This document shows, piece after piece, positions 9,844 through 56,693 of a DNA stretch of 64,000 nt; positions within the stretch are counted from its first letter, which is position 1; each line of letters begins with the position of its first letter. The notes beneath the pieces were generated by a model. It did no database searches, was not told the origin of the DNA, and saw nothing but the letters and a program-made list of their open reading frames with translations. This DNA comes from Symbiodinium sp. CCMP2592 (Eukaryota; Sar; Dinophyceae; Suessiales; Symbiodiniaceae), in contig CAJNDT010001291.1 of assembly GCA_905221615.1 (NCBI GenBank), positions 186,001-250,000 on the forward strand, in the 5' to 3' direction. Both the position numbers and the translations under genes were made by a program.

Positions 9844-9928
9844 ATGTGTGCAAGGGAAGGGAAGACAACAACGCCAAAGGTGATCGTTGGCCATGGGCCC
9901 GTGGGTCACATTCTGCTTGAGATCTTTG
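9844..9928 (+). CDS. nirB-like: Reductase module 1, exon 1 (FAD-binding motif)
   Basis: The ATG opens MCAREGKTTTPK, then VIVGHGPVGHILLE, the N-terminal GxGxxG dinucleotide-binding loop of NirB. It ends phase 1 at a GC donor (9929). An AG|G at 9853-9855 leaves open that this is an internal exon. Confidence 0.85.
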
Positions 9929-12900
9929 GCTGCAATTGAACCCTTAGGGCCCATCAACTGATACAGTAGATAATGGCGGTGTCCTGAGTATAAATCAACC
10001 CATTTGAGACCTATGTATATACTTCGTAGGTACATGGACCCTCGGCAGACGCGAAAACTTGAAGCAGTAAGACTTGTCTTCAGATTACATTGGGCGTCGT
10101 CGCATACTTCAACGGCGTGCGTGCGAGCTTCTGAAGTTTAAGCTTGCTGGGTAGCTTAAACTTTAAACCCCCGTCCAAGCTGCACGTTTACATTGTCTAA
10201 GGGTCTATGTACCCAATCAGGATATACTTTTGCCTTCAAGTAGTCCCCATATAGGTACTTTGAAGCCAAAGTATCTACTATTCGGATACATGGACCCATA
10301 GGGTTTATGTACCATGTACCGTACCGTGAATGCTTGGGCCTGGGCACATGGAGCCTCAGGGTTCGCTGGCCCATGAAATCGGCAACCCAGCCATGTAGTT
10401 AGTGGATTAGGGTTTAGGGCTTAGGGTTTTAGGGTTCAAGGTTCAGGGTTCAGGGTCACGGGCTGAGTAGGTAAGTCATAAGTAAGATAAGCTGCAGCTG
10501 CAACTACTTATAGCCCAAATTGATAAAAGGTGCTTATAGCTGTACTTGCCAAGTCTCATGATCCACGCAAGGGCTTATCAACGGTATCTGCAGCCCCAAG
10601 CCCCACTAGAATGGTAGGTCATGACCCGAGACTTCTTTGTTTATAACCTTGAAACAGTAGGTTGTTGTACTTATAAATATGGTGTCCACTATTGTCTCAA
10701 ATCTTACGCCAAAGCCACAACCCTAAACCCCTAAACCCTAAGCCCCTAAACCCTGAACCCCTACTGTAAACCCGAAACCCTAAACCCCCGAACTCCTAAA
10801 CCCCGGTAAGCCCTAAACCCTAAGCCACTGAACCCCTAAACCTCTAAACCCTAAACCCCTGAACGCGAAACCCCAGGTACCTCACGGAAGGAACGGAATT
10901 CCCTCTGGAGCTCACGGTCCTCTGCTCGGGCCTCAACCGATGCAGATTCGTTCGGTTTAGGGTTTAGGGGTTTAATTAGGGTTAAGGGGGTTAGGGCCAA
11001 GGGTTAATTACTAGTGTCTTTATGGATTACTATCTTTGTAGGGTTTTAGTATAGGGCTGCATGTGGTACTTCGAGTAGGTTATAACCTGGGTCAGTAGGT
11101 CATAGTAAGACTATGACTTTCCCATGGGAGCCCTCTCGAGATGCTGGATGCTGGGTTACAGTGCTAGGACCCAGAGTAGGCCCTTATTCCCTTTTTTAGG
11201 GTTCAGGTTCCCTCATAAGCCCCTTTAAACCAAAAAGTGCACCCTTTTTATTCCTAGGCTACTCTTGGGTCTAGGTGTGTAATCTTCCTAAACCCTAAAC
11301 CCCAAGGGAGGGTGCTTGGAAGGCTACCCCTAAGGTTTTCTGAGCTAGGGTGCAGCAAAATCGTCGAGGACATGTGAGGCTAGACTTAGTTTCTCGAAGT
11401 TCATACAGGGGCCTTGGCAATTGCAGTTGAGCTGTGCAGTAAAGTGAGATTGAGACTTTGTCGGTTGGAAGAGCATTCCGTTCAGCCTGTTCAGTGCGAC
11501 TTGGGGTTTCCGTCGTGGGATGAGGGGGAAGGTGCCAACACTGACGACGATGCTTACTGCTGATGATGGTTTGATTGCCGTCGTCATCGGCAACAGGAGC
11601 TGATTATTATCATTGGTCACGGGTGTTGTTATGATACTGATAATTGTGCGATGCTGGCCGTGTAGCTAAGCTAGAGTCGGTATTGTCGGTGATTATTTCG
11701 AGAAGGCCATGTTTGCTGGCATAGCGGCTGGGACCATGATTATTGTTTAGCGACACTGCCCAGTATGTGTTTTGTTCGCTCATGTCAGTCCACGAGCGAA
11801 TCAGAAGAGAAGCCTGGATCCGGAGTGAAGAGAGCATAGCTGGTGGTCAAATGCGACCAGAGCTTGACATCTCTTCTGCTGTCAACCCAGCTTCTCTCTT
11901 CGCAACCACCAGCATTGCAAAGCACACTCAATACCTCTCGAAAATTCATGGAGCAAAAGTGGACCCTGAAGCTGGACACTCGCGAGGCCTCGTCATCGCT
12001 CTGGCAGACATCCTTTTCCAATTTCCCTTTGAGTCAATCTCCTTTGCTCTGAGCGAAGGAAGGACCAACGAGCTGAGCTTGAAGTCTGCAACAACATTCG
12101 AACAACAGGTCTCCTGGTGAACCACGATCAATTGGTAAAGTTCCTGACGACACAGCGCTCCTTCCCATAGGGATCACACTCCAAGGTCAAGCTATCAGAG
12201 ATCACAGGTGACCTCCTGACTGAGGTGGTTAGCATCCTGACGTCGTGTGGTCTGAATACTAAGTCCCCTGATGCTTTAAGTAGGCCTGTGTAGGCAGCTG
12301 ATTAAGAAACCATGCCTTGCACCTCTATGCAGCGAATGCGCACAGAGCAACTAACTCAGCGCGATCAGGGGATGGATCAGCTTCCTACATTAGTTCAGAC
12401 TCCACCGTTTCTATCGTGCCAGAGCCCTGCCCCTAAACCCTAAATCCTGAACCCTAAACTCTAAACCCAAACCCTAAGCCCAAGCCCTAATCCCGAAACC
12501 CAAACCGAAACCCCAAAGCCACCAGAACATGGGAGCCTTGACCCGCCATTGCCTAGGACCCAGAGTAGGCCCTTATTCCTTTTTTTGAGACTTCAGGTTC
12601 CCTTATAAGCCCCTTTAAACCAAAAAGGGCACCCTTTTTGTTCCTAGGCTACTCTTGGGTCTAGTTGCTGTAAACCGGAAATCGTAGACCATGCGACCCA
12701 GCAAAGCCTAAGCCCGGAACCTTGGACTTCACGGGATTTAGGGTCTTGAGCCCGGTTCAGGGTTTAGGGGTTTAGGGTTTAGGGTCTAGGGGTTTTAGGG
12801 TTGAGAGTTTAGGGGTTTAAGGTTTTGAGGGTTAAGCAGCAAACCTGAGAAGCCCTAAACTAAAAAAAACTGTATTACCCCAAAGGAGAAAGCTCGAGAC

Positions 12901-15900
12901 TCACTGCATCACCTCAAAAAGGTGAGGAGCCGCGATTGGCTTACAACCGCGTAGCCATGACGTGCCTGGCTTGCAACTATGAGAGTACTGCACTGGGTTG
13001 ATTGGGTCAGAGCTTGTTAGCAAGTAGGTTGCACGTAGGGTTTGACTGTCGTATAGTCACAAGGCAACTGAGATGAATTGGGTTGGCTGCTGGGTGCTTA
13101 GCGTTATGGTGATGGCGTCGATGATGATAACCTTGATTGCGCCGCGGCCGTGAAATACCTTGTGGACTCTGTGCACGTCCTGTGTGTTGTATGCCACTTG
13201 GCCCAACATATACAATCTTGACTCCTGGCACACAGCTCGGTACCACAATCTCCATCAGTAATGTCAATCACTAAGCAGATGACCAAAGAGAATGAGGATC
13301 AAAACCCTCCTCTGCAAAACAACAAATCCACAAAGTAACTGACACTACTGAACAATTTAAGAATTGCGAGCGAGATGGTTCCTGCTGTCACAGTTGAAGC
13401 ATTAAACTTCGTCGCGTGTCATGCTTGGAGGATGAGGGGACTTAGTAAGTAGGGTTATAAGCAAGATAACTATCGTTATAGCTACTTACTACCTGAATTG
13501 AAGTACTTATAACCCTACTTACTAAGTCCCGTGATCCTCTAAGTGAGGAGCTACTTCCAGCATCGTTCCGCAGACGAGCTGTCGATGTGCAGCCCGGAGT
13601 GGCTGCGGGAGAAGAGCCTCACAGAATGACTTAGCCTTTAGGGGTTAAGGGTCTAGGGTTTCTAGTCTACGAAAAGGGCCAAAATTACCAATACTACTTG
13701 AGGGCTCGAGAATACTCCGAAGGTGGAGATAGCCGACGCCCCAGTGCAGGCGAAGCCCGCACGTGTGATCAAAGCTGGCCCTCTCGCGCCATAGTCCGCC
13801 TTGGCACAGGGCCCTGCGCCTACAGCGAGCAAGAGCTCGCATCCGGGTACGCCGCGCTCAGGCGGCCTTGGTCCAGCCACCACGGCGCGACTTGTTGCGC
13901 CTCGAGTCGCACCACAGCAGACCTCGTTACAGGTCGAGTCGGTTGCCGGTCATGGGAAAAGGCTGGGATCAGAACAAGCCAAAGGGCAACGGCAAGCCCT
14001 CTGGCGGCTCGCGATGGGGATACTGGCGTGGCTCTTGGGGGAGCCCCTCTTACAAGGAGCAGGATTATGGCGCTTGGGAGAATGCGGAGCCGTCTTCAGC
14101 GTTCCCTGCCTACGATGCCAAGGACCGTGCCTCGGCGGTCAAGCGAGCCGAGAAGGAAGTACCCAAGGCTGCTGGCAAAGCGGCAGGCCGTGGGAAAGAT
14201 GCTCCAGATCCCGAAGGTTACCTCACGGCTGGTCTTCAGGATTATATCAACAGTACACGCAAGGCAGAGCAACGAGTGAGAAACCTCACCGCGACGCGAG
14301 CTCAGAAGGTGAAGTTGTGGGAGAAGTGGCAGGAGGACATGAAAGTGTCGTACCTGCGCGAGCTCACCCGTTTCGAGAAAGCGATGCGTACTTTGGATGC
14401 AGACCTGGAGGCAGCTGTTGGAGCTCGGGACGAGGCAAGACAAGCGATTCGCCAGCACATCCAGAACGAGGGCCACGTGGCCGTCGACGCAGGCGAGGAG
14501 GAAGAGATCAATTGGGAGGATATGACGCGACAGTGGAGGCAAGAACAACAGGAACAAAAGGACCAGGATGCTCCTCGGGAAGTTTTGCGAAGGGCTATGA
14601 AGCTGCAGGAGGCGCCTTCTGTGGCTCCGCCCGCGGTGGCCCCGAGTCTTGGAGGCCTCATGACTCCCGAGGCAGCAGCAAAGCTTTTCATGGCGACAAT
14701 GACGGGACAGATGATGAGTGCCTTTCAGCAGGAGCCAAGGGCGGCCGATGTGAGCATGGCCGGTGCGCCCTCCGCTATGGCCCCCCTGCCATCACAGGCT
14801 GCTGGTGCCGTGGATCCGAGCCTTGCTGCCCCATATGTCGCATCGCCTTCTACACGGCATACGGAACACCCTACCAGTCCCAACTTGCCGCCCAAGGGTA
14901 CTACGGCTCCTCGTCCTCGGCCCAGTCCCCGTCAACCATTGAAAGGTGCACCTCTGCAACCGGTGCATACACAGACGCCAGCCAAACTGGAGTCCAAGTT
15001 GGAAGCAAAGCGGGCAGCTCTCCAGTCGGAGATGGAGGCTGCTGCAACAGATGCGGCCCGGGAGTCAGCGGCGCAGGCCACACGGAGTGCCGAAGCCCCG
15101 CAGCGAGTGCAGCTCAACGACGACGACAGTTCCGATGTGGAGCCTATGGATCGCGGTCCACCAGGGCTTGCTGGCATGGAATGATGAGTGCGGTCGGGGC
15201 TCAGACCGGTGTGGGTGATAGTGACCCTGATGTTCGGCTGGGGGGCGCGGAGACCCTCGGTCAAGAACGCTCGTGTCACTTAAGCCTCACTGATGTCTGT
15301 GGCCCCTGGCCCTTCCCTGAGGAAGCGGTAGGATGTACATTAATAGGCCGTCGGTCCATTGATGTACAGCGTTCCATTGTCTGCAGGGGCACCTTTCTTT
15401 CGCTGCGGGACCTAATTAGCGACATGCGCTGGGTTTGCGCTTGTTCGTGTGTTAGGTTTCTGCCTGTCTCCTCGCAGGAGCTGTCGGCTCACTGGGTTCG
15501 TGAACTCGGCGGTTCCTCCCCGCTTTTACTGCACCCAGGTGCCCGTTGCATCTCTACCTCTCAGGAGCCTGTTGCTTGGGTGATGCTTCTAGCTTGGGTG
15601 TTGGAAGGTTGGCGACAGGCCTTGTGTCCTTTTGGACGCTCACTGCTCGCAACTGTAGGGTTTGCTTTGCTGGGGATGCTTGCCGAGGCAATTTTCCCAG
15701 GGCATCGGCGGCCCTTCATGAGGTACCCTCCTTTTCGCACACTTTTGCTCCCAGTTGGCTGTGTATTGGCCAAAGTAGGACAGACGTCAGAGCCTGTGCT
15801 CTGCTGGCGTATGAGTGACAAGCATGCCCGTGGATGTGTTACGCGAGTCAACAAACGATACGCTGCGCCGAAGCTTACACATTGGGGTTTTTGTAGGCTT

Positions 15901-18900
15901 TGGCTGTGGTTGTTGCTTTGGTTTCGCATTCCGTACCAAGTGTGGGCTGCCCCTGAAGGTTTTGTGCCAGCACTTCAGGCGGTTGAGCAATTTCAGGCTG
16001 CACTCCCAGATGTGTTGATGCAGGACGGGCCTCTAGCTTCGACAGATGATGAGACCCGGACCCTTCTTCCTTTGCCTCAACAGCGGAGTATTCTAGCCTC
16101 CTTGGAGCCGGAGTCGTGGCTGGGGGTTACTGTCTTTGCGGCCTGTTATGCCCCTAGGTGGTATGCAGTACGATTTGAGCCAAGCCAGGGGTTAGCTAGC
16201 CTTTGCAGTAGGATTGGACGACTCGAGCGCGGCTCCAGGCCGCATCTGCAGCGTGTTGTGCCGGTTGTTCCTCAGCCAAATCGTGGCGCCGCCGCATTCC
16301 TGGCGTTTCCTGCCTGCTTGGACGACTTCGAGCGAGTCGCTGTTGTTCTGGACCTCTCGCATGTGGGAGGAGGTGTGTTTGCGGTGCATCTTGCATCAGG
16401 TTGCACTGCTGAGGCTTTGCTTCACCTTGTACGAGCAGAGGTCAATTGTGAGCTTGAGGACGTTGCCATACATGTCAATGCAGCCACCGAGCCCACAGAT
16501 CGCAACGAGGCCCTTGGTGTAGCTCATGGTAGCCTTGTTGTGTTGCTACGGAGGGAGTCTCCTGTGCCTGCACATCAGGATATTGTCTCTCTTCTGCAGA
16601 GCACGGACACTTGGGAGCCTGTTGTTGAGCTGAGGGTTTCGAGCGGTGGCCATGCTGTTGCAGTCTGGTTTCGTGATGAATTCCATGTGCTGCAGCCCGA
16701 GCGCTTCCCAGGTCAAGATGTCCTCAGTGTAATTGCAGATCGCTTTCGGGTGCCTGCTTGCACTCTGCACATTGCCAGTACGCAAAGCCTCGATGCATTT
16801 GCGATCAACGGTGAGGCATGCTGCACCCTTTCAGTCGTTTCCGAATATTCTGGTCCGGCTGATGACGATTTTGGGCAGTACACTGCAAGAGATGTGCTTA
16901 GCATTGTCTGTGATCTCCGTCCTGCCGGATTCGTGCCCCTCGTTGTCCGAATGGAAGAAGACTTATGGGATGTTTCTGCCCTTCAACGACGTCTTGCAGT
17001 GCCTAGCACTGAATCTTGGCTTTTTGGCTTTGAGGAGGTTCTCAAGAGTGGAAGCTGGCAGGATCCCTGCCTTGCCGTGATCCGCGCTGTGCAACTCTCG
17101 GCAAGCAGGCTTGCAGAATCTGCTCTCAGGGCGCAGGACCCCTTTGGTTTGATTGCAGCTGTCGTCCAGGGGTCGCACCTTCTTTCTTCTGGTGAACCTA
17201 CGCGTGTCGGGGCTCTTTCGACTCCACGGCAGGGTCAGCTCCGCCCCGCCATCGCTTCGGATTCTGAAACAAGCGCAACTGGGTCACGTGGCCCGCCCGT
17301 TGAGGGACAGGTTCTTGTCTTGACGGTTGATAGGGCTAGCACGGTTTTTGAGTTCGAGCTAGCAGTCCCGGCGACTATAGCTGAATTGATCGCTGTTGTC
17401 GATGAGGAGCGGGCGCCTGCCTTTTACCTCCAATACCCCAACCTCGTTGAGGTTCTGCCACAGCCATCCTCTCGATGGGCGACCCTTTTAGCTCTCCCTG
17501 GGTGGACCGCTGCAGCGGATGTTGTCGTCTTGGATACCACGGGTATCGACGGGCGCATCTTTCCGGTTTGCTTTCCACATCTTGCGAGCTTTGCGCGCAT
17601 TTGCGAACTTGCCGGTCTTTCTCCTGATGGCAATTTTGCTATCTTTCCGTTTGGCGCGCAGGTGCCCCTTGCACAGGATGACGCTGTGCGCATTGTGCAG
17701 CACGGCTGTGTTTTCATCAGGCAGCAGGGCGCTCCGCCCCCTGTTACAGGCTCGTTACTTGACATGTTGTCTTCTGCAGCAGGCTGGGATGTGGAGGTCG
17801 AAGTGCCGCGCGGACCCGGGGGTCTTCGTAGCAATTTTGCTTGCATTGTTCTTGAGGAAGGAGCGCGTCTGCTTACTCTCAGGCCCTTGCACGGCAGGCA
17901 TCATCTTGAAGCCCTCGCTGAAGAGTACGGCTTGCCGTTGCATTGGACAACTGCTCAGGCCACCAGGCCCTTGGTGCAGAACGCCTGCCATCAAGGCTAC
18001 AGGTGCAAAGGTGTTGCGCTTGTTTCCAGCGCTTTTCCCAATGTCCCAGTCCCCCCTGCGCGACACAGGCCGGGGGATTTTGTGATTGCTCTGGACTGCC
18101 GTTCACTCTTTCAAGGGTGGCACCAATATGTTGTACGAGACTTTCGCTGTTCTCACTCGGAAATCGCCATGCATTTTGACACTTTTGCACCAGACGGTTT
18201 CCTTGTCCAGATTGATGGAGCTAGCTTGGAAGATGACAATTTGATTGTCAGCAAAGGCATGGTCCTTACTCTCACTTGGACTCCGGTTACCCCTGCATCG
18301 CAGATTCAAGAGGATCCTTCCGGGCCGCCCTCTGCTGCGTACGCTGCTTCCGTCGACATGCTTGCAGGCGATCGTGATTCGGATCCTGTTAGCGCTGATT
18401 ATGCAGGTGATCATGTGCTCCCCACCGATGTCCGGGGAGATGAGCGGCGTAGCCGCAGCCGGTCTCCTCTCGGACATGCAGCGGCGCATCTGCTTTTTGC
18501 GTCAGTGCTGGCTGCCCAAGGGTCAAGTGCCGAATCTGCACGAGTTGCAAGGGTCCCCGATTTTGATTTTGGTCCGTTCGGCTGGGGCCCTCCCCCAGGA
18601 TCAGATAGAGGCACAGGTCACAATTGCCCGACTGTTTGGGGAACGAGGTCCATTGCAGCGTCCTGTTCCCGCGGCCTTGCTGCCGGTGCCGGCCCCCATT
18701 GCCGGAGGTTGTTCGCCAGCCTGTTGATATCCCTTTCCTGGTCTTTGCTTGCGAGTACTGGCCTGAAACCCTTTCTGTTGTGTTGGCGCCGCCGGTCTCC
18801 GTGTTGCAAGCCTTGGCATCCGTCAATGAAGCCCGCGACGGCTTCTATCGAGACTTATTTCCAGTGCTGCTCCCAGTCAATCCGCAACCACTGTCGGGAG

Positions 18901-36665: not shown

Positions 36666-36755
<90 letters not shown>

Positions 36756-36763
36756 GACTACTT

Positions 36764-36844
<81 letters not shown>

Positions 36845-41005: not shown

Positions 41006-41038
<33 letters not shown>

Positions 41039-47000: not shown

Positions 47001-50000
47001 CTTCAGGATTTAAATTATTTAAATTATTTAAATTATTTAAATTATTTAATTCCCGGCCCCATTTAAATAATTTAAATAATTTAAATAATTTAAATAATTT
47101 AAATCCTGGCCGGGGGGGTTCCCGGGGGCCCCGGGCCCCAGGATTTAAATAATTTAAATAATTTAAATCCTGGGGAAGGGCTCCGGATTTAAATTATTTA
47201 AATTATTTAATTCCCGGGGCCCTGGACCCCCGGGGACCCCTCCCCTTCAGGATTTAAATTATTTAAATTATTTAAATTATTTAATTCCCGGCCCCATTTA
47301 AATAATTTAAATAATTTAAATAATTTAAATAATTTAAATCCTGGCCGGGGGGGTTCCCGGGGGCCCCGGGCCCCAGGATTTAAATAATTTAAATAATTTA
47401 AATCCTGGGGAAGGGCTCCGGATTTAAATTATTTAAATTATTTAATTCCCGGGGCCCTGGACCCCCGGGGACCCCTCCCCTTCAGGATTTAAATTATTTA
47501 AATTATTTAAATTATTTAAATTATTTAATTCCCGGCCCCATTTAAATAATTTAAATAATTTAAATAATTTAAATAATTTAAATAATTTAAATCCTGGCCG
47601 GGGGGGTTCCCGGGGGCCCCGGGCCCCAGGATTTAAATAATTTAAATAATTTAAATCCTGGCCGGGGCCCTCCCCCAGGATTTCAATTATTTATACTGTT
47701 TAAATGGGGCCGGGAATTAAATACCACCCCACCCCACCTACCCTCCCTCACCCAGCCCTGCCACCCACCGACCCTCAGCGCCCACCCAGCGTCCCAACCC
47801 CCCCCCACCCACCCTTCCTCCCACTTCACACTCCCTCCACCTCCTGCCCACCCTACCTCCCAAACACCCTCCCACCACCCTCTCACCCACCACTTCAAGG
47901 GCTAGGGATCCCACACATCTGCGGGCAAAATCTGGCGGAAGTGATCCGCCACCGAGCAAAAAGCCTGTAAATACCGCATTAAACGAAGGGCCAGGGATTT
48001 CACACATCCGTTGGCAAAATCTGGCGGAAGTGAGCAGTCGGTACCTCCGCCAGATTTTGCCAACAGATGTGCGAAATCCCTGGCCCTTTGTTTAATGCGG
48101 TATTTACAGGCTTTTTGCTCGGTGGCCGGTGGCGGATCACTTCCGCCAGATTTTGCCCGCAGATGTGTGAGATCCCTTGCCGTTGTTTTAACGCGGTATT
48201 TACAGGCTTTCTGCTCGGTCGCGGCTCGCAGGGATCAGGGGGACACCCCTTGCGCCCTGTGGTTTTCTGATCTGAGTTTTCACAAGACCTTAGGGGGACA
48301 CCACTTGCGATCTATGATTTTGGGATCTGAGTTCTTACACAACCTTCCCTCCACCTCCTGCCCACCCTACCTCCCAAACACCCTCCCACCACCCTCTCAC
48401 CCACCACTTCAAGGGCTAGGGATCCCACACATCTGCGGGCAAAATCTGGCGGAAGTGATCCGCCACCGAGCAAAAAGCCTGTAAATACCGCATTAAACGA
48501 AGGGCCAGGGATTTCACACATCCGTTGGCAAAATCTGGCGGAAGTGAGCAGTCGGTACCTCCGCCAGATTTTGCCAACAGATGTGCGAAATCCCTGGCCC
48601 TTTGTTTAATGCGGTATTTACAGGCTTTTTGCTCGGTGGCGGATCACTTCCGCCAGATTTTGCCCGCAGATGTGTGAGATCCCTGGCCGTTGTTTTAACG
48701 CGGTATTTACAGGCTTTCTGCTCGGTCGCGGCTCGCAGGGATTAGGGGGACACCCCTTGCGCTCTGTGGTTTTCTGATCTGAGTTTTCACAAGACCTTAG
48801 GGGGACACCACTTGCGATCTATGATTTTGGGATCTGAGTTCTTACACAACCTTCCCTCCACCTCCTGCCCACCCTACCTCCCAAACACCCTCCCACCACC
48901 CTCTCACCCACCACTTCAAGGGCTAGGGATCCCACACATCTGCGGGCAAAATCTGGCGGAAGTGATCCGCCACCGAGCAAAAAACCCGTAAATACCGCAT
49001 TAAACAAAGGGCCAGGGATTTCGCACATCTGTGTTGGCAAAATCTGGCGGAAGTACCGACTGCTCACTTCCGCCAGATTTTGCCAACAGATGTGTGAAAT
49101 CCCTGGCCCTTTGTTTAATGCGGTATTTACAAGCTTTTTGCTCGGTGGCGGATCACTTCCGCCAGATTTTGCCCGCAGATGTGTGGGGTCCCTGGCCGTT
49201 GTTTTAACGCGGTATTTACAGGCTTTCTGCTCGGTCGCGGCTCGCAGGGATTAGGAGGACACCCCTTGCGATTTGTGATTTTGGAACTTATTTGTTATAA
49301 CAACCTTTAGGGGGACACCACTTGCGATCTGTGGTTTTCGGTTCTGAGTTTTCACAAAACCTTGGGGAGACACCCTTGCGATCTGTGATTTCGGGATCTG
49401 AGTTCTTACAAAACCTTGGGGGGGACACCCCTTGCGATTTGTGGTGTTGGAATTCATTTGTTATAAAAAGCTTTAGGGAGACACCCCTTGCGATTTATTG
49501 TTTTGGAATTTGTTGTTTCAACGAACCCTTAGGGGGACACCCCTTGCGATCTGGGTTTTTGGGATCTGAGTCTGTACAAATCTTGGGGCGACACCCTTGT
49601 GATCTGTGATTTTATCTGTGTTTTTTGCAGAACTTCAAGGAAAAAAATTTCTTGCCGACGCAGGGGTAGATGGAGCTCTCTTGTCTTTCGTGAAGTTGAA
49701 GGGGCCTGTCTGCTGTGCTGAGATGGACCTCTCTCCCGTCTCACTACATGGGAGGAAGCTCTCAATCATTTCTTGTGGAGGATGAAGTAGAAGACTTTTC
49801 TTTTTGGAAGCAAGGGGAGCCCTGGCTTCTCTTGCTAGGAGCGAAGTCTCTTCAATCTTCTTAAGATAAAAGCGACTTACCAAGAGGTAAAGGCTCTCTC
49901 TGCTCAAATAAAGCTCTCGTCGCTTACCAAGAATAACTTGGAGTGAGCTCTCTTCCTGCTTCACAGCAGGGTAAGGTAGAGGGCTTGGGCTTCTCGTCTC

Positions 50001-53000: not shown

Positions 53001-56000
53001 CACTGAAATGAATCTCCTGAGGCATACACAATCAAAAGCCGCCCCACATAAAAAAAAAAAAAACATACAAAAACACACACACACACACACAAAAGCACTC
53101 ATTAGGAACACAAGCCATCAAGCCTCCTCCAAACCCTGAGGAAGCTCTGTAGACATGCCCAAAGAAAACCTGCCAAATCTGCCAACCTCCATGCAACCCA
53201 AAGATAGCCAGAGAACCCAGTACCCCTAATTGAGGAACATACCTTAAGTCGTAACATAAGACCCCTATAATTTAAGGTACACCCCTTAATCAAGAGGTAT
53301 TGGAATATCTGGGTAGCCCTGAACAAAAGCCCTAAACTCCTAAACTCCTAAACCCTAAACCCTAAACCCCTAAACACTAGACCCCTAAGCCCTAAACCCC
53401 TAAACCCTGAACCCCTAAACCCCAAAACCCTAGAACCCTGAACAAAAGATGCCATAAACCCTAAATCCCTAAACTAACCCCCCTAAAACCCAAAACCCTA
53501 AAACCCTAAACAAAAGACGCCATAAACCCTAAATCCCTAAACTAACCCCCTTAAACCCATAAACCCTAACCCCCTAAACCCTGAACCCCTAAACCCCAAA
53601 ACCCTAAAACCCTGAACAAAAGACGCCATGAGGAAGCTTTTGGGAGTGGATGTCGCCACCTTCGGAGCGAATGCCGAGCTGCTATGGCTGAAAAAATCAA
53701 GTCGCTGCTGTAGTCCTAATCTAGGGTTTTGGTTTAGGATTTAGGGCTTTTTAGGGTTTTAGGGGTTTAGGCTAGGGGTTTAGGGTTTTAGGGAATCTAT
53801 ACTTAGGGGTACTTAGAAATAATTTTCAATTTTTGGTTATTATAAACCCTAAGAAATGGCTAAAATTTTAATTTCTGCTGGGGTTCTAAGTTCAGTATAG
53901 TATAGGGTGTAGGGTTCTAGGGCTTTAGGGTTTAGGGGTGGGTACCAAGCCGGGTTTTTGGTGAGTTTCTGAGGGTTTTATGGAGTTATTGCAATGGGAT
54001 TTCAGAAGAGCTTCATGGGTTGCTAGAGTTTTAGGAGGGTGTTAGTGTTCGGGAGCGTTGACAAGGGTTCCGAGAAGGTTTGCACGGGGTTTACTATAAA
54101 GGACCTAGATTCCCCAGCCCGCCGAAAACACAAACTCCTGGTTGTAGCCCAACCCACAAACACCGACTACGAACGGAAACATGCAGCCCCTGAAGCCATG
54201 TTTGATCCCTGCAACATTGCGCAAAAAGCCGATGCAGACATATGAAACCATGTGTAGCTAAGAAACCCTAAATTATTAAAGCCCAGGAGTAAGTTTCCGT
54301 ATTGCATCCTCTGCGACAGTAGGACTTTTCTTCCAAACAGCGTAAAACTTGAAAACCCTGCAAAACTCGGCTTGAGAAGCACAATCGCCGCAAACCGGCT
54401 TGTTTGGAAGAGCTCATAAAAGCCACAAGCAGCACTGTCAAAACCATCGAAGCCGGGAAAAAAAGCCTCAACAGCGCCCTAGATTCTAGATAACCTGTAA
54501 CGAAAGTCCCTGGAGCCGTACATAACCACGGAAAAGCTTCTCTTAAGCCCTAAAGATGCTTCATTACATATGAACCCCCACAAGGAGCCACTTTGGGGCC
54601 TATGGGTAGTAGTTTTGAAAAAGCTCCGACGCGCGAGGTTCTGGAAGTCTCGCATGTTCGATCTTGAGGATGGCCAGCAGGGGACCCGTGGCTTCAAGCT
54701 GCTTGCGTACTGTCTGGATTTTGGGGTTCATTGTGTGCGTGTGTCTGTGTGTGCGGTTGTGACAAACAGAGGGATAGAGAGAGACAGAGAGAGAGACAGA
54801 GAGAGAGAGAGGGAGAGGGAGAGGGAGAGAGAGAGAGAGAGAGAGCGCGAGAGACCCTTTGTGAGTGTGTATTTTGTTTGTAATCACCCGTTCGGACCCA
54901 CGGAATGCCGAGGAACATCTGTGTGACCACCGCCCTGGACGCCACCGCCGGCAGCTACAGCCGCTGGGCAGATATTGCGATACGGGAATACACTGGGGGT
55001 ATACTGGGGACTTGTAGCGGTATACTGCCATAAGACAGGTGCCTCGAAAGGACCCCTGATTGAAAACCAGCCGACCCTTGCAAGACTTATTATAATATTG
55101 AAACTGTCGATCCCCTGTCGGAGAGATCCGATTACGTTCAAAGCACTGCCTGGCTTAAAGATACAAGGGACCATGTAGTATGTATGTAGTATGTGCTTTG
55201 ACCCTACTGCACCTTAATAGCAACCTTGAGCCCGATGTATATAAGACATAGGTAGAGGGATCCTACCTACTCAAACAAAAAAATCCTTTGTCCCATACAC
55301 TATAAAAACTCCCGAAGCTATGTAATGTAGAATCCCGTAAAGGCCCGACATGATCCGCCGATCCTGGCCTCTCTAACTTTGCCGACAGACCAAGGAAGCA
55401 ATTGCTCTGGGGTTTAGGGTCGATCTCTCCAAAATCCCTCTTACTGCAGTTGATCCTAAACCCTAAACGAAGAAAAGAAAGTTCTTCATTCAAGAGGAGA
55501 CTTTCCTGGATTACACCCTAAAGCCCGAAGCCCAAAATCCTAAGCTCTAAGCCCTAGACCCTAGACCCTAACCCCCAAACCCTAAGCCGCAAACCTAAGC
55601 CATAAACCCTAAACCTCAAGCTTGTCTCAGAAACCCAGGGAAGCTCATCTTCCGTCGGTGTCCCAGCGGTTGCCGCCGTCTTCTCGGCGGTGTTCTGGTG
55701 AAAAGCGTGGAGGACTTTGGCGCTTCTAGCCTTAGGGTTTAGGGTTAGGTTTTTGGGGTTACGGTTTGAGGGTTTTAGGTTCGTTCCGGCATAGGGATGT
55801 AGTGTTTTAGGTTCGTTCCGGCATAGGGAGGTAGGGTTTTAGGTTCGTTCCGGCATAGGGATGTAGGGTTTTAGGTTAAGGGTTTAGGGTTTAGGGTGTT
55901 GGGTTTAGGGTCTCGCAGATGAGCATGTCAGGCTTAAGGATGTACGGTTTTAGGTCCAGGGCTCCAGGACTTGTGGGTTCAGATTCGGTTTAACTGAGGG

Positions 56001-56693
56001 GTACTTAGAAATTAATCCCTAAGAAACAGCTAAAGTTACAATTGTTGCTGGGGTTCTAAGTTCAGTATGGACCCTAAAGTTAGCCCACCGCCCTAAATAC
56101 CATTGTTTTCGGGAGTGTCAGAGACCCAGACCCTACGGGTTCAAGTAGTCCTTGTTTGTGGTTTTTGGTACCCAAGAAGGCCCTAAAGTCCTATAATAGG
56201 GAGTACTTCTGTTGATGATTTAAATCCTGCATTACCTCAAGGACCCTAAACTGTGGGAATTATGGTACATTCCCGATTATGGGTAATGCAGGATTTATAT
56301 CATCAACTAAACCCTAAACCCTAAACCCTCTCTGCCAAGGCAACCGTTGGACCCTCTGGGAGAAAGCCTGAGCCTCCTATGATTTAACGTGTGTTCCACC
56401 CAGAGAGCCCAATACCCCTTAATTAAGGAATATAGCTGAAGGCCTAGGGTTCCTTGAAGGGTTCCTTCAAGGGATCTAGAAGGGTTCTATAAGGGAATTA
56501 CGGAATATGGCTAAAATCATAATATGAAACCCTATATAGTTTAAGCCTTATTCATTAGTTAAGAGGTATTGGGCTCTCTGGGGTATCGGGGTCCCTCGCT
56601 GGGAAGGACTACCAGTCTCTTTGCGACCTCGCGCGCTGCGGTCGCGAACTTTGGGGCCTTGAGACAGCTGCCTGCCTGATGATAGCATCGGAG
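9844..56693 (+). CDS. nirB-like: NirB/NasB-type FAD-NAD(P)H reductase, module 1 (23 exons)
   Basis: Gene-level entry; exons are listed separately. Joining 23 exons gives one frame with no stop: 402 codons to exon 22, then exon 23. Domain order matches the N-terminal reductase part of nitrite reductase large subunits. First comes an FAD-binding GHGPVGH Rossmann motif, then CEEPRLAYNRV and the SYFQHRSADELS segment. LVLATGSSPFVPPVPG (ATG motif) follows, then TIEDMDAI and the NAD(P)H motif VIGGGLLGLEAA. Next are LEAAPILMSAQLD, VVSCGIRPRDELA and the second FAD motif SIYAVGE. The end is a C-terminal reductase domain (KLLGVDVATFG, YRKLIFRR, LLGGVLV). Expected role: electron transfer from NAD(P)H through FAD. 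No siroheme/4Fe-4S part is seen. The GEC cysteine of E. coli NirB is Val here. Introns make up about 97% of the span; 13 have GC, 5 GT and 4 GA donors, and all acceptors are AG|G. The ATG choice is plausible but unproven. Exon 23 either reads to TAG 56694 or splices on to module 2 at 58613. Confidence 0.9.
10197..10299. mobile_element. TIR element, family D (copy 2), in intron 1
   Basis: Diverged copy of 3002-3109; arms are tctatgtaccca and its complement. Intron 1 (9929-10890) also holds a family F copy at about 10468-10572. Confidence 0.6.
10468..10572. mobile_element. TIR element, family F (copy 2)
   Basis: Shares gtcataagtaagataa in the left arm and tctcatgatcca in the right arm with the other family F copies. 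Confidence 0.6.
10891..10923 (+). CDS. nirB-like: Reductase module 1, exon 2
   Basis: 33 nt after gAAG|G, encoding TEFPLELTVLC. The GC donor at 10924 splits the Cys codon before EEPRLAY. Confidence 0.85.
11165..11274. mobile_element. TIR element, family G (copy 1), in intron 2
   Basis: Arms are acccagagtaggcccttatt and its complement. A close copy is at 12553-12662 in the same intron, and a diverged one at 63659-63770. Confidence 0.75.
11340..12430. other. Non-repetitive stretch of intron 2, unidentified
   Basis: This 1.1 kb has ordinary composition and lacks telomere-like units. It has overlapping open frames on both strands (up to 125 codons, + strand 11743-12120) but none recalls a known family. 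It may be an eroded transposon. Confidence 0.4.
12553..12662. mobile_element. TIR element, family G (copy 2)
   Basis: About 100 bp nearly identical to 11165-11274, including accaaaaaggg in the right half. The two copies bracket the non-repetitive stretch of intron 2. Confidence 0.75.
12922..12961 (+). CDS. nirB-like: Reductase module 1, exon 3
   Basis: Encodes EEPRLAYNRVAMT, the counterpart of CEEPRIAYDRVHL in E. coli NirB. The AG acceptor is at 12920-12921 and the GT donor at 12962. Confidence 0.9.
13425..13544. mobile_element. TIR element, family F (copy 3), abutting an acceptor
   Basis: Arms are ggatgaggggacttagtaag and the complement cttactaagtcccgtgatcc. It ends three bases before the AG of the exon 4 acceptor (13546-13547). 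Confidence 0.8.
13548..13613 (+). CDS. nirB-like: Reductase module 1, exon 4
   Basis: Encodes SYFQHRSADELSMC and SPEWLREK, matching the YFxHxxAEELSL region of NirB. The acceptor touches the end of a family F TIR element. The GA donor at 13614 opens the 14.3-kb LINE-bearing intron. Confidence 0.9.
13690..13700. repeat. Target-site duplication, left (AATACTACTTG)
   Basis: This 11-bp sequence recurs exactly at 26117-26127. It sets the 5' end of the LINE at 13701. The sequence to its left belongs to a family H TIR element. Confidence 0.85.
13952..15184 (+). CDS. LINE ORF1 protein (410 residues)
   Basis: ATG 13952 gives MGKGWDQNKPKGNGK; the frame extends upstream only through non-ATG codons. The N-terminus is rich in Gly/Lys/Trp/Tyr and suits nucleic-acid binding. 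Residues about 85-175 are strongly helical and charged (LWEKWQEDMK, LTRFEKAMRTLDADLEAA), a likely coiled coil for multimerisation. The middle is Ala/Pro-rich, and another helix (KLESKLEAKRAALQSEM) is near the C-terminus. No CCHC knuckle was seen. By analogy with LINE ORF1 proteins it should coat the element RNA. The frame is intact. Its TGA overlaps the ORF2 start as ATGA. Confidence 0.85.
   Translation: MGKGWDQNKPKGNGKPSGGSRWGYWRGSWGSPSYKEQDYGAWENAEPSSAFPAYDAKDRASAVKRAEKEVPKAAGKAAGRGKDAPDPEGYLTAGLQDYINSTRKAEQRVRNLTATRAQKVKLWEKWQEDMKVSYLRELTRFEKAMRTLDADLEAAVGARDEARQAIRQHIQNEGHVAVDAGEEEEINWEDMTRQWRQEQQEQKDQDAPREVLRRAMKLQEAPSVAPPAVAPSLGGLMTPEAAAKLFMATMTGQMMSAFQQEPRAADVSMAGAPSAMAPLPSQAAGAVDPSLAAPYVASPSTRHTEHPTSPNLPPKGTTAPRPRPSPRQPLKGAPLQPVHTQTPAKLESKLEAKRAALQSEMEAAATDAARESAAQATRSAEAPQRVQLNDDDSSDVEPMDRGPPGLAGME
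20980..21425 (+). other. RNase H domain of ORF2
   Basis: The motifs follow the RNase HI order. TADGSYNP carries the catalytic Asp at 20995, SAYIAEVVGLWWA the Glu, and LFRADNQAALD the second Asp. YRHVRGHCGDVANELAD carries His and the last Asp. All four acidic positions are present. It lies before the endonuclease, not after the RT. Confidence 0.85.
21675..22460 (+). other. Endonuclease (EEP/APE-like) domain of ORF2
   Basis: It begins with CVSFNALSL (Asn motif), then VQEAR (Glu), a variable core, VLVDGNCRVG (Asp-x-Asn) and, after TAG 22309, DFVGLPCSW and RTPDHFAA (the final Asp-His pair). This matches LINE apurinic-type endonucleases. The premature TAG sits where related elements usually have a Trp-containing segment. 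Confidence 0.8.
23040..24400 (+). other. Reverse transcriptase domain of ORF2
   Basis: Motifs in order: SPNKACGPDWMPP, IPKPG, ILFMDISSAYYSV with catalytic Asp at 23677, GTRPGSIVS (box B), then YADD at 24126-24137 in another frame. A one-base indel near 23958 separates box B from YADD. The box order is standard for LINE RTs. Confidence 0.9.
25080..25270 (+). other. C-terminal zinc-finger region of ORF2
   Basis: CLLCKVAF..HAWAAHAAKVH and CQACAMTF..YRRHLQ are two CxxC...H-type fingers. Similar fingers end several LINE ORF2 proteins and probably bind nucleic acid. Confidence 0.7.
26117..26127. repeat. Target-site duplication, right (AATACTACTTG)
   Basis: Exact partner of 13690-13700, directly after the A-rich tail of the LINE. 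Confidence 0.85.
26128..26205. mobile_element. Right part of a TIR element (family H) split by the LINE
   Basis: It holds agtacagtataatatgcccc and cctagtctaattat, found also at 3815-3900 and about 27800-27905. The left part lies at 13672-13700. Removing the LINE and one duplication rebuilds one ordinary ~110-bp element. Confidence 0.7.
26206..27800. other. 3' remainder of intron 4
   Basis: No exon is recognised. The stretch mixes unique AT-neutral sequence with CCCTAAA scraps (26910-26960, 27250-27275, 27545-27565). Confidence 0.5.
27806..27905. mobile_element. TIR element, family H (intact copy)
   Basis: It contains aattaccaatactatg on the left and agtacagtatataatgtgcc on the right, like the copy split by the LINE. 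It ends about 20 bp before the exon 5 acceptor (AG at 27923-27924). Further copies are at 29810-29900 and 39995-40107. Confidence 0.7.
27925..27977 (+). CDS. nirB-like: Reductase module 1, exon 5
   Basis: Encodes NVSVILARATHIDRLRK (the conserved ID-R turn of NirB). It joins exon 4 across the LINE in phase. GT donor at 27978. Confidence 0.9.
28350..28460. mobile_element. TIR element, family B (copy 1)
   Basis: Arms are tatgggtggttgtcaaaatt and its complement, with a central gtacggcacctaatattta. Copies are at 29572-29684, 37473-37573, 41224-41326 and 58505-58605. Confidence 0.85.
28751..28862. mobile_element. TIR element, family A (copy 3)
   Basis: AATACCCCTTAATTAAGGAA arm and its complement, ending GGGCTCTCTGGG. 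In intron 5. Confidence 0.85.
29015..29063 (+). CDS. nirB-like: Reductase module 1, exon 6
   Basis: Encodes VAYVGDSASGELEYDE. AG|G acceptor and GT donor. Module 2 has GELDYDE at the same place but with a different intron position. Confidence 0.85.
29137..29250. mobile_element. TIR element, family M (copy 1)
   Basis: Arms are taccttaacccggaataacc-like and the complement ggttaaggtaggg, with an inner inverted pair cctacctttttaagga / aaaaaggtagg. Second copy at 59468-59560. Confidence 0.7.
29572..29684. mobile_element. TIR element, family B (copy 2)
   Basis: Same arms and central gtacggcacctaatattta as 28350-28460. In intron 6. Confidence 0.85.
30175..30258 (+). CDS. nirB-like: Reductase module 1, exon 7 (ATG motif)
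   Basis: Encodes LVLATGSSPFVPPVPG and TSTPGVFTY, a hallmark NirB stretch. The GA donor at 30259 sits in an 8-bp repeat (ACAGGACT) that recurs at the next acceptor. Confidence 0.95.
30892..30924 (+). CDS. nirB-like: Reductase module 1, exon 8
   Basis: Encodes TIEDMDAIIA (cf. RTIEDLNAI in NirB). 33 nt, GC donor at 30925. Confidence 0.9.
31520..31735. repeat. 22-bp tandem array just upstream of exon 9
   Basis: About nine to ten units of tagatccctttaaggaaccc with small variation. It ends about 20 bp before the exon 9 acceptor. Its unit is close to the reverse complement of the array after exon 9. Confidence 0.9.
31758..31821 (+). CDS. nirB-like: Reductase module 1, exon 9 (NAD(P)H motif)
   Basis: Encodes AAVIGGGLLGLEAAK, the second GxGxxG..E Rossmann motif. 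GC-rich island between two tandem arrays. GC donor at 31822. Confidence 0.95.
31826..32575. repeat. GGATCC-rich tandem array directly after exon 9
   Basis: About 750 bp of gggatcctttaagggatc and gggatctctagggatcc modules in higher-order mixtures. It starts within five bases of the exon 9 donor. Confidence 0.9.
32775..32940. repeat. About 49-bp tandem repeat, three copies
   Basis: Units carry gattctagggttctttaagg and tcctttaggggatctctagg. Related in sequence to the neighbouring GGATCC array. Confidence 0.75.
33345..33451. mobile_element. TIR element, family K (copy 1)
   Basis: Arms are catatgggagcttctgaaaa and a tcggaaacccatatg-type complement. Copies are at 34744-34842 and, nested, 38005-38112. 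Confidence 0.7.
33802..33831 (+). CDS. nirB-like: Reductase module 1, exon 10 (30-nt microexon)
   Basis: Ten codons, ALLDLKMKVT, filling the expected gap between LGLEAAK and VLEAAP. AG|G acceptor, GC donor. Confidence 0.8.
34338..34389 (+). CDS. nirB-like: Reductase module 1, exon 11
   Basis: Encodes VLEAAPILMSAQLDKVA, matching HVIEFAPMLMAEQLDQM of NirB. GC donor at 34390. Confidence 0.92.
34494..34578. mobile_element. TIR element, family F (copy 4), in intron 11
   Basis: Shares ataagtaagataacca and tactaggtctcatgatcctc with the other copies. Confidence 0.6.
34744..34842. mobile_element. TIR element, family K (copy 2)
   Basis: Inverted orientation of the family K core: tcctacttttttgggtact, ending actcccatata. 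Confidence 0.6.
35275..35315 (+). CDS. nirB-like: Reductase module 1, exon 12
   Basis: Encodes RLLAKRLEKLGLE (cf. LRRKIESMGV). GT donor at 35316. Confidence 0.9.
35354..35440. mobile_element. Truncated family A element
   Basis: Left arm gagccccataccccttaatt, then a cctagggttccttaaaggg insert like that in 56399-56582 and 61587-61763. The right arm is missing. Confidence 0.6.
35521..35629. mobile_element. TIR element, family A (copy 5)
   Basis: Complete, from CCCAGAGACTCC to its complement GGAGTCTCTGGG. In intron 12. Confidence 0.9.
36666..36843. repeat. (TAC)n microsatellite, about 59 units
   Basis: Nearly pure trinucleotide array with one short break near 36756-36770. It produces long poly-Tyr, poly-Leu and poly-Val frames that are not genes. 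In intron 12. Confidence 0.97.
37104..37208 (+). CDS. nirB-like: Reductase module 1, exon 13
   Basis: The longest exon (105 nt). Encodes VRTGVKLQEILSNGEDGV, RYVKFLEDD and GKPSFQ. GC donor at 37209. Confidence 0.88.
37219..37311. mobile_element. TIR element (family T), 11 bp after the exon 13 donor
   Basis: Perfect arms ccagaaagttggaatat at 37222-37238 and their complement at 37294-37310. Confidence 0.75.
37473..37573. mobile_element. TIR element, family B (copy 3)
   Basis: ggttatcaaaattatggtcc arm and its complement, with the centre inverted relative to other copies (aggtgccgtagta). Confidence 0.8.
37809..37918. mobile_element. TIR element, family A (copy 6)
   Basis: From CTCTGAGAGCCC-like left end to GGGCTCTCTGGG. 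The inner arms are partly decayed. Confidence 0.8.
37966..38166. mobile_element. Nested TIR elements: family L interrupted by family K
   Basis: The outer arms acccataggccccatagtgg and the complement at 38145-38166 match the uninterrupted copy at 42512-42603. A complete family K element (about 38005-38112, ends catatgggg and cccatatg) lies inside. Confidence 0.75.
38597..38800 (+). CDS. Orphan coding-like segment in intron 13
   Basis: An open frame of 67 codons ending in TAA 38798. The best part starts at an internal ATG near 38657 (MGPLKLYKPDKRFTM, later HTDLAIPLRSPQM, basic end KKSRIHKL). Composition is protein-like and free of repeats. It is not part of the reductase frame. Possibly a captured 3' gene fragment; no family recognised. 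Confidence 0.3.
   Translation: MLEQSFQPRRSVRAIRGVVGMGPLKLYKPDKRFTMTEDSRKPVHTDLAIPLRSPQMTTYKKSRIHKL
39002..39048 (+). CDS. nirB-like: Reductase module 1, exon 14
   Basis: Encodes EVFLEVDVLVVSCGI; the Arg of GIRP is completed by the next exon. GC donor at 39049. Confidence 0.9.
39361..39467. mobile_element. TIR element, family C (copy 2)
   Basis: gttgatgatacaaatcctgc arm and its complement tgcaggattt. In intron 14. Confidence 0.75.
39588..39700. repeat. Interstitial CCCTAAA/CCCCTAAA array
   Basis: About 15 tandem 7-8-bp units, among the purest in the window. In intron 14. Confidence 0.95.
39995..40107. mobile_element. TIR element, family H-like
   Basis: Arms are tatagggcccttagcaatta and its complement. 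It overlaps no exon. Confidence 0.55.
40619..40671 (+). CDS. nirB-like: Reductase module 1, exon 15
   Basis: Encodes PRDELARECGLDLGTSV, continuing the GIRPRDELA motif. GA donor at 40672. Confidence 0.93.
41005..41112. repeat. (TATG)n and (TA)n microsatellite
   Basis: About 15 TATG units followed by TA repeats. In intron 15. Confidence 0.95.
41224..41326. mobile_element. TIR element, family B (copy 4)
   Basis: atgggtggttgtcaaatt arm and its complement, with gtacctaa-type centre. In intron 15. Confidence 0.85.
41404..41545. repeat. Interstitial TTTAGGG/TTTAAGGG array
   Basis: About 18 units alternating seven and eight bases. Opposite orientation to the 39.6-kb array. Confidence 0.95.
41874..41947 (+). 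CDS. nirB-like: Reductase module 1, exon 16 (second FAD motif)
   Basis: Encodes ERGGVAVDCYMRSS and DASIYAVGE, matching RGGIVIND..SDPDIYAIGE. GC donor at 41948. Confidence 0.95.
42512..42603. mobile_element. TIR element, family L (uninterrupted copy)
   Basis: acccatcggctcgatagtag arm and its complement at 42585-42603. It serves as the empty form of the nested element at 37966-38166. Confidence 0.7.
42607..42722. mobile_element. TIR element (family S)
   Basis: Perfect outer arms cttgggtactgcccccac-like and gggggcagtacccaag. It directly adjoins the family L copy. In intron 16. Confidence 0.7.
42802..42925 (+). repeat. Dispersed 120-bp repeat before exon 17
   Basis: Nearly the same sequence as 61839-61962 (shared cttctggttggctctttaga and gaggggttcagaag). 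Both copies run up to, or nearly up to, a splice acceptor of the reductase gene. Confidence 0.85.
42950..43012 (+). CDS. nirB-like: Reductase module 1, exon 17
   Basis: Encodes VASHEGGMVYGLWKPGAEQA (cf. CASWNNRVFGLVAPGYKMAQ). The family's GEC cysteine is Val. GC donor at 43013. Confidence 0.93.
44084..44117 (+). CDS. nirB-like: Reductase module 1, exon 18
   Basis: Encodes VLAGTLASPSE. GC donor at 44118, AG|G acceptor. Confidence 0.85.
44340..44655. repeat. 14-15-bp telomere-derived tandem array
   Basis: About 20 units of accctcaaaaaccctaa and variants, telomere-like units alternating with CCCTCAAAA. In intron 18. Confidence 0.93.
44731..44835. mobile_element. TIR element, family C (copy 3)
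   Basis: acggtggatgat arm with cctgcattaccc and the complement ending catcaaccgta. The interior is inverted relative to 39361-39467. Confidence 0.75.
45351..45436. mobile_element. TIR element (family O)
   Basis: tcattgttgggtaacatttt arm and the complement ending tctcaacaatga. Single copy in the window, intron 18. Confidence 0.6.
45542..45575 (+). CDS. nirB-like: Reductase module 1, exon 19
   Basis: Encodes LKYHGSDLST (cf. FEGADLSAKLK). The GT donor at 45576 opens an 8.06-kb intron with the giant TIR element. Confidence 0.9.
46022..46127. mobile_element. TIR element, family J (copy 1)
   Basis: Arms are caagtgcccaaatagtgggg and ccctactatttgggca. Second copy at 62424-62519. Confidence 0.7.
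46140..46206. repeat. (CCCCCA)n tract flanking the giant TIR element (left)
   Basis: About ten CCCCCA units. A shorter CCCCCA-rich tract in the same orientation lies at 52919-52950, just beyond the element's right end. Confidence 0.9.
46330..47700. repeat. Palindromic satellite, six ~235-253-bp units
   Basis: The landmark cctggccgggggggttcccg recurs at 46376, 46620, 46861, 47105, 47340 and 47593. Each unit alternates AATTTAAAT-type AT palindromes with GGGGCCCCGGGCCCC-type GC palindromes, so every block is self-complementary. No coding potential. Confidence 0.97.
47833..49250. repeat. Three ~510-bp tandem units with hairpins
   Basis: Units start ccctccacctcctgcccacc at 47833, 48347 and 48854 (steps 514 and 507 bp). 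Each holds two nested hairpins built from gccagattttgccaacagat and its complement. They give repeated short frames (MCEIPG.. and FARRCVGS..) on both strands that are artefacts of the repeat. Confidence 0.93.
49246..49620. repeat. About 57-bp tandem array
   Basis: About six units with gggacaccccttgcgat and gatctgagttcttacaaa. Related units also end each 510-bp repeat. Confidence 0.85.
49620..52700. repeat. GA/CT-rich complex tandem repeat
   Basis: The segment gtctcttcaatcttcttaa recurs near 49850, 51270 and 52500, so higher-order units are about 1.2-1.4 kb. Smaller internal duplications (ctttccactgccaagagag near 50860, 50955, 52185) are present. Strong purine/pyrimidine bias; no recognisable gene. 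Confidence 0.8.
52796..52886. repeat. Two-copy ~52-bp direct repeat
   Basis: Two units with ttcctgggagagtct and actccagaacccgagtgt, next to the right end of the giant TIR element. Confidence 0.8.
53208..53313. mobile_element. TIR element, family A (copy 7, diverged)
   Basis: CCAGAGAACCCAGTACCCCT arm and its complement ending ATATCTGGG. In intron 19, 320 bp before exon 20. Confidence 0.75.
53330..53620. repeat. CCCTAAA-type tract with a ~80-bp higher-order repeat
   Basis: Telomere-like units with gaacaaaagacgccat recurring three times before exon 20. The third copy runs into the exon 20 acceptor. Confidence 0.8.
53633..53677 (+). CDS. nirB-like: Reductase module 1, exon 20
   Basis: Encodes KLLGVDVATFGANA, as KLLGVDVGGIGDA in NirB. 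The end of the exon and the next acceptor share AATGCCGAG. GC donor at 53678. Confidence 0.93.
53794..53910. mobile_element. TIR element, family N (copy 1), in intron 20
   Basis: acttaggggtacttagaaat arm and the complement ggggttctaagttcagtat. Second copy at 55988-56069; a distant relative is near 125-235. Confidence 0.6.
54768..54850. repeat. (GA)n microsatellite
   Basis: About 40 GA-rich dinucleotides. The Arg/Glu and Ser/Leu frames over it are not genes. In intron 20. Confidence 0.95.
54913..54959 (+). CDS. nirB-like: Reductase module 1, exon 21
   Basis: Encodes NICVTTALDATAGSY. GC donor at 54960. Confidence 0.85.
55639..55712 (+). CDS. nirB-like: Reductase module 1, exon 22
   Basis: Encodes KLIFRRCPSGCRRLLGGVLV and KSVE (cf. 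YKRLIVSEDNKTLLGAVLV). GA donor at 55713. Confidence 0.93.
55776..55875. repeat. Three ~37-bp direct repeats
   Basis: Units of ttttaggttcgttccggcat, separated by telomere-like bases. In intron 22. Confidence 0.85.
55988..56069. mobile_element. TIR element, family N (copy 2)
   Basis: Shorter version of 53794-53910 lacking part of the AT centre. Confidence 0.6.
56210..56306. mobile_element. TIR element, family C (copy 4)
   Basis: Arms gttgatgatttaaatcctgc and complement; well preserved. Confidence 0.8.
56399..56582. mobile_element. Family A element with a ~70-bp internal insert
   Basis: Complete family A arms. After the left arm comes cctagggttccttgaagg and more, ending before a repeated aattacggaatat. 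It ends 24 bp before the exon 23 acceptor. The same composite structure is at 61587-61763. Confidence 0.8.
56607..56693 (+). CDS. nirB-like: Reductase module 1, exon 23 (3' end uncertain)
   Basis: Encodes DYQSLCDLARCGRELWGL and stays open to TAG 56694-56696. Phase-0 GA/GC donor candidates at 56661, 56667, 56670 and 56685 would allow splicing to 58613, which also starts in phase 0. Either a true C-terminus or a linker exon. Confidence 0.8.

Follow-up and report, generated by a model that had tools for sequence, protein, structure and literature searches.

Results

Exon structure of copy A

Two tandem, intron-rich genes encoding the FAD/NAD(P)H reductase half of NirB, copy A (23 exons up to a stop codon) and copy B (at least 20 exons), lie on the forward strand of the window, that is, the whole stretch of 64,000 nucleotides analysed here, copy B running past its end. 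Copy A spans positions 9844 to 56693, and its 23 exons of 33–87 nt join to a coding length of 1281 nt, equal to 427 open codons, followed by TAG at 56694–56696. The exons make up 2.73% of this span and have a GC content of 61%, compared to 50% in the introns, which measure 503–14311 nt. The first-pass annotation had described, over the same 9844–56693, 23 exons of 30–105 nt with at least 402 codons and an exon share below 3%, figures that fit the final model.

Searches by tblastn with NirB of the same genome and of Escherichia coli matched ordered short pieces along the forward strand of the window. A purpose-written spliced aligner, which fits a protein profile to DNA and allows introns of the form GT/GC/GA...AG, gave copy A 283.8 bits with a seven-protein profile, compared to 23.7–34.6 bits across nine controls (the reverse strand, three flanking stretches and five column-shuffled profiles). 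With a profile built without either copy, and without rewarding the base that follows AG, copy A reached 420.3 bits, compared to 29.9–40.6 bits across eleven controls (the reverse strand, four shuffles of the columns, and three flanking stretches on both strands), which confirms the earlier claim of 23 ordered segments matching the NirB FAD/NAD(P)H domain. In this neither-copy run, 16 of 22 exons had exactly the final boundaries and the remaining six agreed at one boundary; some boundaries of copy A were set by hand after comparison with copy B.

Exon 1 (9844–9920), matched by tblastn at 9880–9921, carries the FAD motif GHGPVG and opens with a putative start codon, the ATG at 9844, behind an in-frame TAG. 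Both tblastn and the spliced fit placed exons 3 (12922–12961; EEPRLAYNRVAM), 4 (13548–13613), 5 (27925–27977), 11 (34338–34389), 15 (40619–40659), 16 (41874–41947) and 17 (42950–43012); tblastn placed exons 7 (30175–30258; ATGSSPFVPPVPG) and 9 (31758–31821), the latter with the NAD(P)H motif GGGLLG; and spliced fits placed exons 2 (10877–10923), 6 (29015–29063), 8 (30892–30924), 10 (33802–33834), 14 (39002–39048) and 21 (54913–54959). Exons 2 to 11, 14 to 17 and 21 were exact in the neither-copy run, as was exon 12 (35275–35315). Exon 10, weak at 14 bits, and exon 12, in place of which two spliced fits chose two short exons, at 35.02 and 35.61 kb, that were dropped, are less certain, as are the 3′ ends of exon 13 (37104–37187; spliced fits), put at 37163, 37181 or 37187 depending on the run, and of exon 20 (53633–53686; tblastn and spliced fit), hand-picked among nearby donors. 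Exons 18 (44084–44117) and 19 (45542–45578) were placed by spliced fits together with the comparison between A and B, the peptide of exon 18 being VLAGTLASPSE in A and VLAGTLASPSA in B, and exon 22 (55639–55712), which encodes part of the C-terminal reductase subdomain, was placed by spliced fits with its 3′ end set via copy B. The last exon, 23 (56607–56693), looks weak alone and is backed by copy B: its peptide is DYQSLCDLARCGREL in A and DFPSLCDISRCGKEL in B, and the intron that precedes it has an identical position and phase in the two copies.

Other copy A pieces in the spliced fits were dropped from the model, namely those at 7.9–8.5 kb, those at 33.08, 33.31 and 43.6 kb, three tiny exons at 44.9, 45.2 and 54.1 kb, and all pieces beyond 55.72 kb in two of the fits. 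One of the latter, at 57711–57786, contains an ICSC motif and reached 40 bits, but with a profile that was thinly filled there.

Copy B and its comparison with copy A

Copy B, which was absent from the first-pass annotation, lies in tandem behind copy A from 58616 to about 83365 in window numbering, with six exons in the window and 14 beyond it. The first exon seen (58616–58698, counted from the first fitted codon), exon 2 (59679–59712, ended at 59724 by one run) and exon 4 (61201–61266) were placed by spliced fits, and exons 3 (60341–60414), 5 (61963–62045) and 6 (63094–63196), the last within the window, by tblastn and spliced fits. The first exon seen contains no in-frame ATG, the true 5′ end was not found, and the exon set has a gap between 79.7 and 82.4 kb. 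The model of copy B leaves out an exon of 3 nt fitted at 60.19 kb, pieces located at 71.79 kb and 71.93 kb, others from 80.1 to 82.03 kb, and those beyond 83.4 kb.

A genome-wide search with the N-terminal half of copy B gave 32 matches (34 of 34 candidates scored), 12 of which are exons of the two copies on the contig: eight of B, which match by construction, and four of A, two of them weak (E 0.009 and 0.48). The other matches are open-frame NirB genes and nearby pieces, a third gene with few introns (contig C3290) and weak ones.

The phase fit at 22 junctions, to which the first-pass annotation had pointed, does hold; however, the aligner enforces phase, and the fit alone thus proves nothing. 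A stronger check is provided by copy B on its own DNA, in which 17 intron positions were resolved using fits with copy A in the profile: 11 of the 22 positions of A are common to both copies by codon and phase, and so is the last intron. Eight positions occur only in A where B is resolved, six occur only in B, and two of A fall outside the resolved parts of B. We infer that introns were gained or lost at different places in A and B after duplication, gain and loss being indistinguishable here.

The proteins of A and B are identical at 279 of 402 aligned residues, with Ka 0.265 and Ks 1.89. The resulting Ka/Ks of about 0.14, rough because Ks is near saturation and averaged over the history of both lineages, indicates that both copies were under protein-level constraint. 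Among 90 near-invariant NirB columns, defined on 32 rows (30 bacterial, E. coli and L010, an open-frame NirB of the same genome), A keeps 77 and B keeps 74.

All 41 splice acceptors of the two copies read AG|G, and the 40 donors comprise 27 GC, 7 GA and 6 GT, bearing out the non-standard donors proposed earlier. An AG|G bonus was applied in the earlier spliced fits and none in the neither-copy run, in which 20 of 21 acceptors of copy A still read AG|G. Acceptors of this kind are a feature of dinoflagellate nuclear genes, and both copies combine them with donors of the dinoflagellate type (GC/GA/GT).

Domain content of the protein

In the profile searches set beforehand for the joined exons, the copy A protein matched Pyr_redox_2 (PF07992) at residues 13–302 (1.4e-49; 169.5 bits, cut-off 26.1) and the NirB profile TIGR02374 at residues 13–413 (1.4e-104; 351.2 bits), covering positions 2–388 of 794. 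An earlier model of B matched positions 1–332 of TIGR02374 at 346 bits; the N-terminal FAD/NAD(P)H module of this profile is thus present in A and in the earlier B model, and the whole-protein cut-off of 578.35 bits was reached by neither. A faint match to Rubredoxin_C at residues 337–401 of A fell below the cut-off. Since the TIGR02374 match stops at 388 of 794, copy A appears to encode a complete reductase that terminates short of the BFD domain.

Copy A has the same FAD, NAD(P)H and C-terminal reductase subdomains as NirB (TIGR02374; E. coli nirB, L009; own-genome copies L010–L013), and is about 40% identical to E. coli NirB and 49–51% to L010. In contrast, NirB has BFD [2Fe-2S] and siroheme domains, none of which was found in copy A, and L010 is a single open frame of 1078 residues, whereas copy A is cut by 22 introns. 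Copy A also resembles stand-alone NAD(P)H reductases and oxidases, which have the two-dinucleotide fold without a siroheme part: among solved structures searched by phmmer, the NADH oxidase 6pfz had the best E-value (1.7e-35), and matches were also found to 1xhc (1.1e-26), the rubredoxin reductase 2v3a (2.1e-23) and 3klj, a 'NirB-family (N-terminal domain)' protein (8.7e-17). By profile, however, NirB is nearer than these reductases, two NirB models scoring 304 and 276 bits and the next family 105 with an earlier A model. A glutamate after the second Rossmann strand marks a preference for NADH rather than NADPH, and the glutamate of the VLE motif in A suggests such a preference here.

Other NirB genes and ancestry

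A profile search of the genome with TIGR02374 gave four matches above the cut-off among ten scored. Elsewhere, contigs C2135, C4894 and C5157 of the genome carry NirB genes with long open frames, in pairs 5–10 kb apart; the frame of L010 continues into a part that was recognised by eye as NirD-like. A third, divergent NirB gene, L120 (G000:C3290:113500-118500), has at least eight exons, and an intron interrupts its BFD-like stretch. One intron of L120 shares its codon and phase with one in A and B (GLEAAK|A, phase 0), a single coincidence.

A quick maximum-likelihood tree was built from 88 rows, nine from dinoflagellates and 79 bacterial (78 of the best 80 loci of a scan, plus E. coli), without fungal, oomycete or diatom NirB. 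The nine dinoflagellate rows formed one side of a branch with an SH-aLRT support of 99, and A and B were paired with a support of 100. The pair stood beside the open-frame group with a weak support of only 80, and two other dinoflagellate rows were long and of unsure placement. As A and B are flanked in the tree by relatives bearing BFD, the simpler reading is that their line lost the C-terminal half. At the own-genome loci examined, no relic spliced leader that would point to retroposition of the open-frame NirB copies was found with up to four mismatches.

Search for the missing half of NirB

Fer2_BFD was not found in the joined copy A protein, the stop of which precedes its place. Genome-wide, seven BFD matches (26 of 26 candidates scored) and eight matches to the siroheme domain NIR_SIR (11 of 11 candidates scored) were obtained, none of them on the contig; the BFD search also missed the intron-cut BFD-like stretch of L120. 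Spliced fits of a C-terminal profile at 53–58.6, 79–100 and 100–140 kb gave 21, 28 and 33 bits from scattered short pieces, which is the control level, and two tblastn matches of the C-terminal half with 25–26 bits, located inside a retroelement, were read as chance. An ungapped BFD-like piece behind A (19.9 bits) was equalled by 4 of 86 controls, and one behind B, at 95.5–95.6 kb (24.0 bits), exceeded all 38 controls (best 23.2). Spliced BFD fits behind A and B gave 20 and 35 bits, compared to 27–42 bits in eight control runs and 96 bits for L120 as the positive control. The short BFD-like pieces behind both copies are read as chance, yet they count against the absence of BFD, which is not airtight. 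For A, the stop codon settles the question of the missing half unless splicing differs; B may run on further. Because BFD and siroheme domains were not found and A stops before them, copy A is not a whole nitrite reductase gene. The earlier designation as a NirB-type reductase gene is thus sustained for the FAD/NAD(P)H module and not for a whole nitrite reductase.

Genome setting and repeats

The host genome is that of a dinoflagellate: the dinoflagellate spliced leader is present in 429 exact copies, compared to none of the reversed control, and TTTAGGG-type arrays occur. Within the window, no spliced leader was found with up to three mismatches, and Rfam and tRNA scans gave no match.

A dispersed 112-bp element with inverted ends occurs at 11164–11275 and 12553–12664 in the window and at 73260–73371 beyond it. 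Two of these three copies seem by eye to be flanked by a 4-bp repeat, and the element has at least 40 genome matches among 1393 candidates, the window copy included. It resembles an introner type described for S. microadriaticum (PMC9860276), but here it sits within introns. Three further families of about 105–113 bp, with inverted ends by eye, are represented at 28350–28460, 37213–37319 and 42804–42915; members recur in introns of A and B as well as in their flanks, with about 80–92% identity. In a comparison of 39 introns, the common repeats among the first 46 strong pairs listed are confined to the interior of introns, none extending over a whole intron; old introners that have since become unrecognisable may have been the source of the introns.

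Intron 4 of A contains, at 13600–25500, a GC-rich stretch in which open frames overlap and which is LINE-like. An RNase H-like match in it (E 3e-4) fell below the Pfam cut-off, and one end weakly resembles a zinc finger (E 0.008). The 8-kb intron 19 of A harbours a satellite at 46352–47661 with 244-bp units rich in ATTTAAATA. Upstream of A, at 5076–6632, lies an open frame of 518 aa with RCC1-type repeats in a 123-bp tandem unit.

Discussion

A micro-exon layout such as that of A and B is itself expected in these organisms. Published genome descriptions report for S. microadriaticum 21.8 exons per gene, a mean exon of 109.5 bp, a mean intron of 505 bp and GC/GT/GA donors (PMC5177918), for Symbiodiniaceae 25–74% GC or GA donors (PMC11453091), for Polarella mean introns of 1.3–1.4 kb (PMC7245778), and for another dinoflagellate an intron of 26 kb (PMC11453091). 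Ordinary intron-rich dinoflagellate genes likewise have about 20 exons, GC/GT/GA donors and tandem duplicates (PMC5177918; PMC8045281; PMC11453091). With GC/GA donors and about 20 small exons in each gene already on record for dinoflagellates, the layout is of an ordinary, known kind, with smaller exons (mean 56 nt, compared to 110 in S. microadriaticum) and longer introns (mean 2.1 kb and median 1.1 kb, compared to means of 0.5 kb in S. microadriaticum and 1.3–1.4 kb in Polarella) than the published means. The earlier description of the gene as hidden is thus true for ORF calling but, given a dinoflagellate host for which about 20 exons of about 100 bp with GC/GT/GA donors are published, does not extend to gene-prediction pipelines adapted to dinoflagellates.

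With exon order, frame, splice-site type, domain content, the stop of A, the second copy and constraint established computationally, we consider that A and B probably encode a stand-alone NADH-dependent reductase derived from NirB, and not a nitrite reductase, with a probability of roughly 0.78. A narrow literature search, covering titles and the beginnings of abstracts, returned no description of a stand-alone NirB reductase in a dinoflagellate.

It is unlikely that A and B are modules of one longer polyprotein or two-domain protein, or that B runs into unrecognised C-terminal domains. Such a gene would agree with the first exon of B seen, which has no start codon and is preceded by a possible AG acceptor, with the lack of a near stop after the last exon of B seen, with the BFD-like piece at 95.5–95.6 kb that exceeded its 38 controls, and with the tandem arrays and polyproteins known in dinoflagellates (PMC11453091); an in-frame TAG, however, lies directly behind the last exon of A, the peptide of which has a counterpart in B, and the C-terminal spliced searches behind both copies stayed at the control level (21–33 bits; 20 and 35 against 27–42 bits, with a positive control of 96).

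Quite improbably, A and B could be decayed remnants, that is, pseudogenes of a full-length NirB left behind once intact copies elsewhere took over. NirB open frames do exist elsewhere in the genome, the first exon of B was seen without an ATG, the exon set of B has a gap, and the long introns carry inserted elements. However, decay is at odds with the 427 open codons of A, the Ka/Ks of about 0.14, the near-invariant columns kept (77 and 74 of 90) and AG|G at every one of 41 acceptors.

Short exons and free donor choice would permit a permissive aligner to string short matches together by chance; such chains reach 24–41 bits in the controls and did add pieces at the ends of some spliced fits. 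As an explanation of the gene, however, chance can hardly be entertained in the face of 284–420 bits, an order, strand and frame consistent across 47 kb even in the neither-copy run, and 11–12 intron positions identical in a second copy, and nor can a contaminant on a contig of 1.04 Mb in a genome with dinoflagellate spliced leaders.

Considering A and B as genes for a stand-alone reductase, we propose the following scenario. Both copies would be working genes, and splicing of their transcripts would use donors of the GC, GA and GT types together with AG|G acceptors. The translated protein would be an NADH-dependent flavoprotein without an evident targeting extension, as far as motifs indicate its location. 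Electrons may pass from NADH to FAD and on to a separate acceptor, the roles of donor and acceptor being read from motifs, by analogy with stand-alone proteins of the NirB N-terminal type or with rubredoxin or ferredoxin reductases. In its history, a full-length dinoflagellate NirB may have lost its C-terminal half and then been duplicated in tandem, with introns subsequently gained or lost at different places. It is possible, though somewhat short of an even chance, that dinoflagellates in this way derived from the NirB reductase half an NADH-dependent reductase family of its own, under constraint and using a new electron acceptor, whose tandem genes undergo continuing intron turnover.

Raw sequence was enough to read a gene whose exons fill less than 3% of 47 kb, and homology alone was enough to confirm it. 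A and B also allow a direct test of what the NirB reductase does without its siroheme half, and another of how introns turn over in adjacent duplicates, here in a lineage noted for gaining introns.
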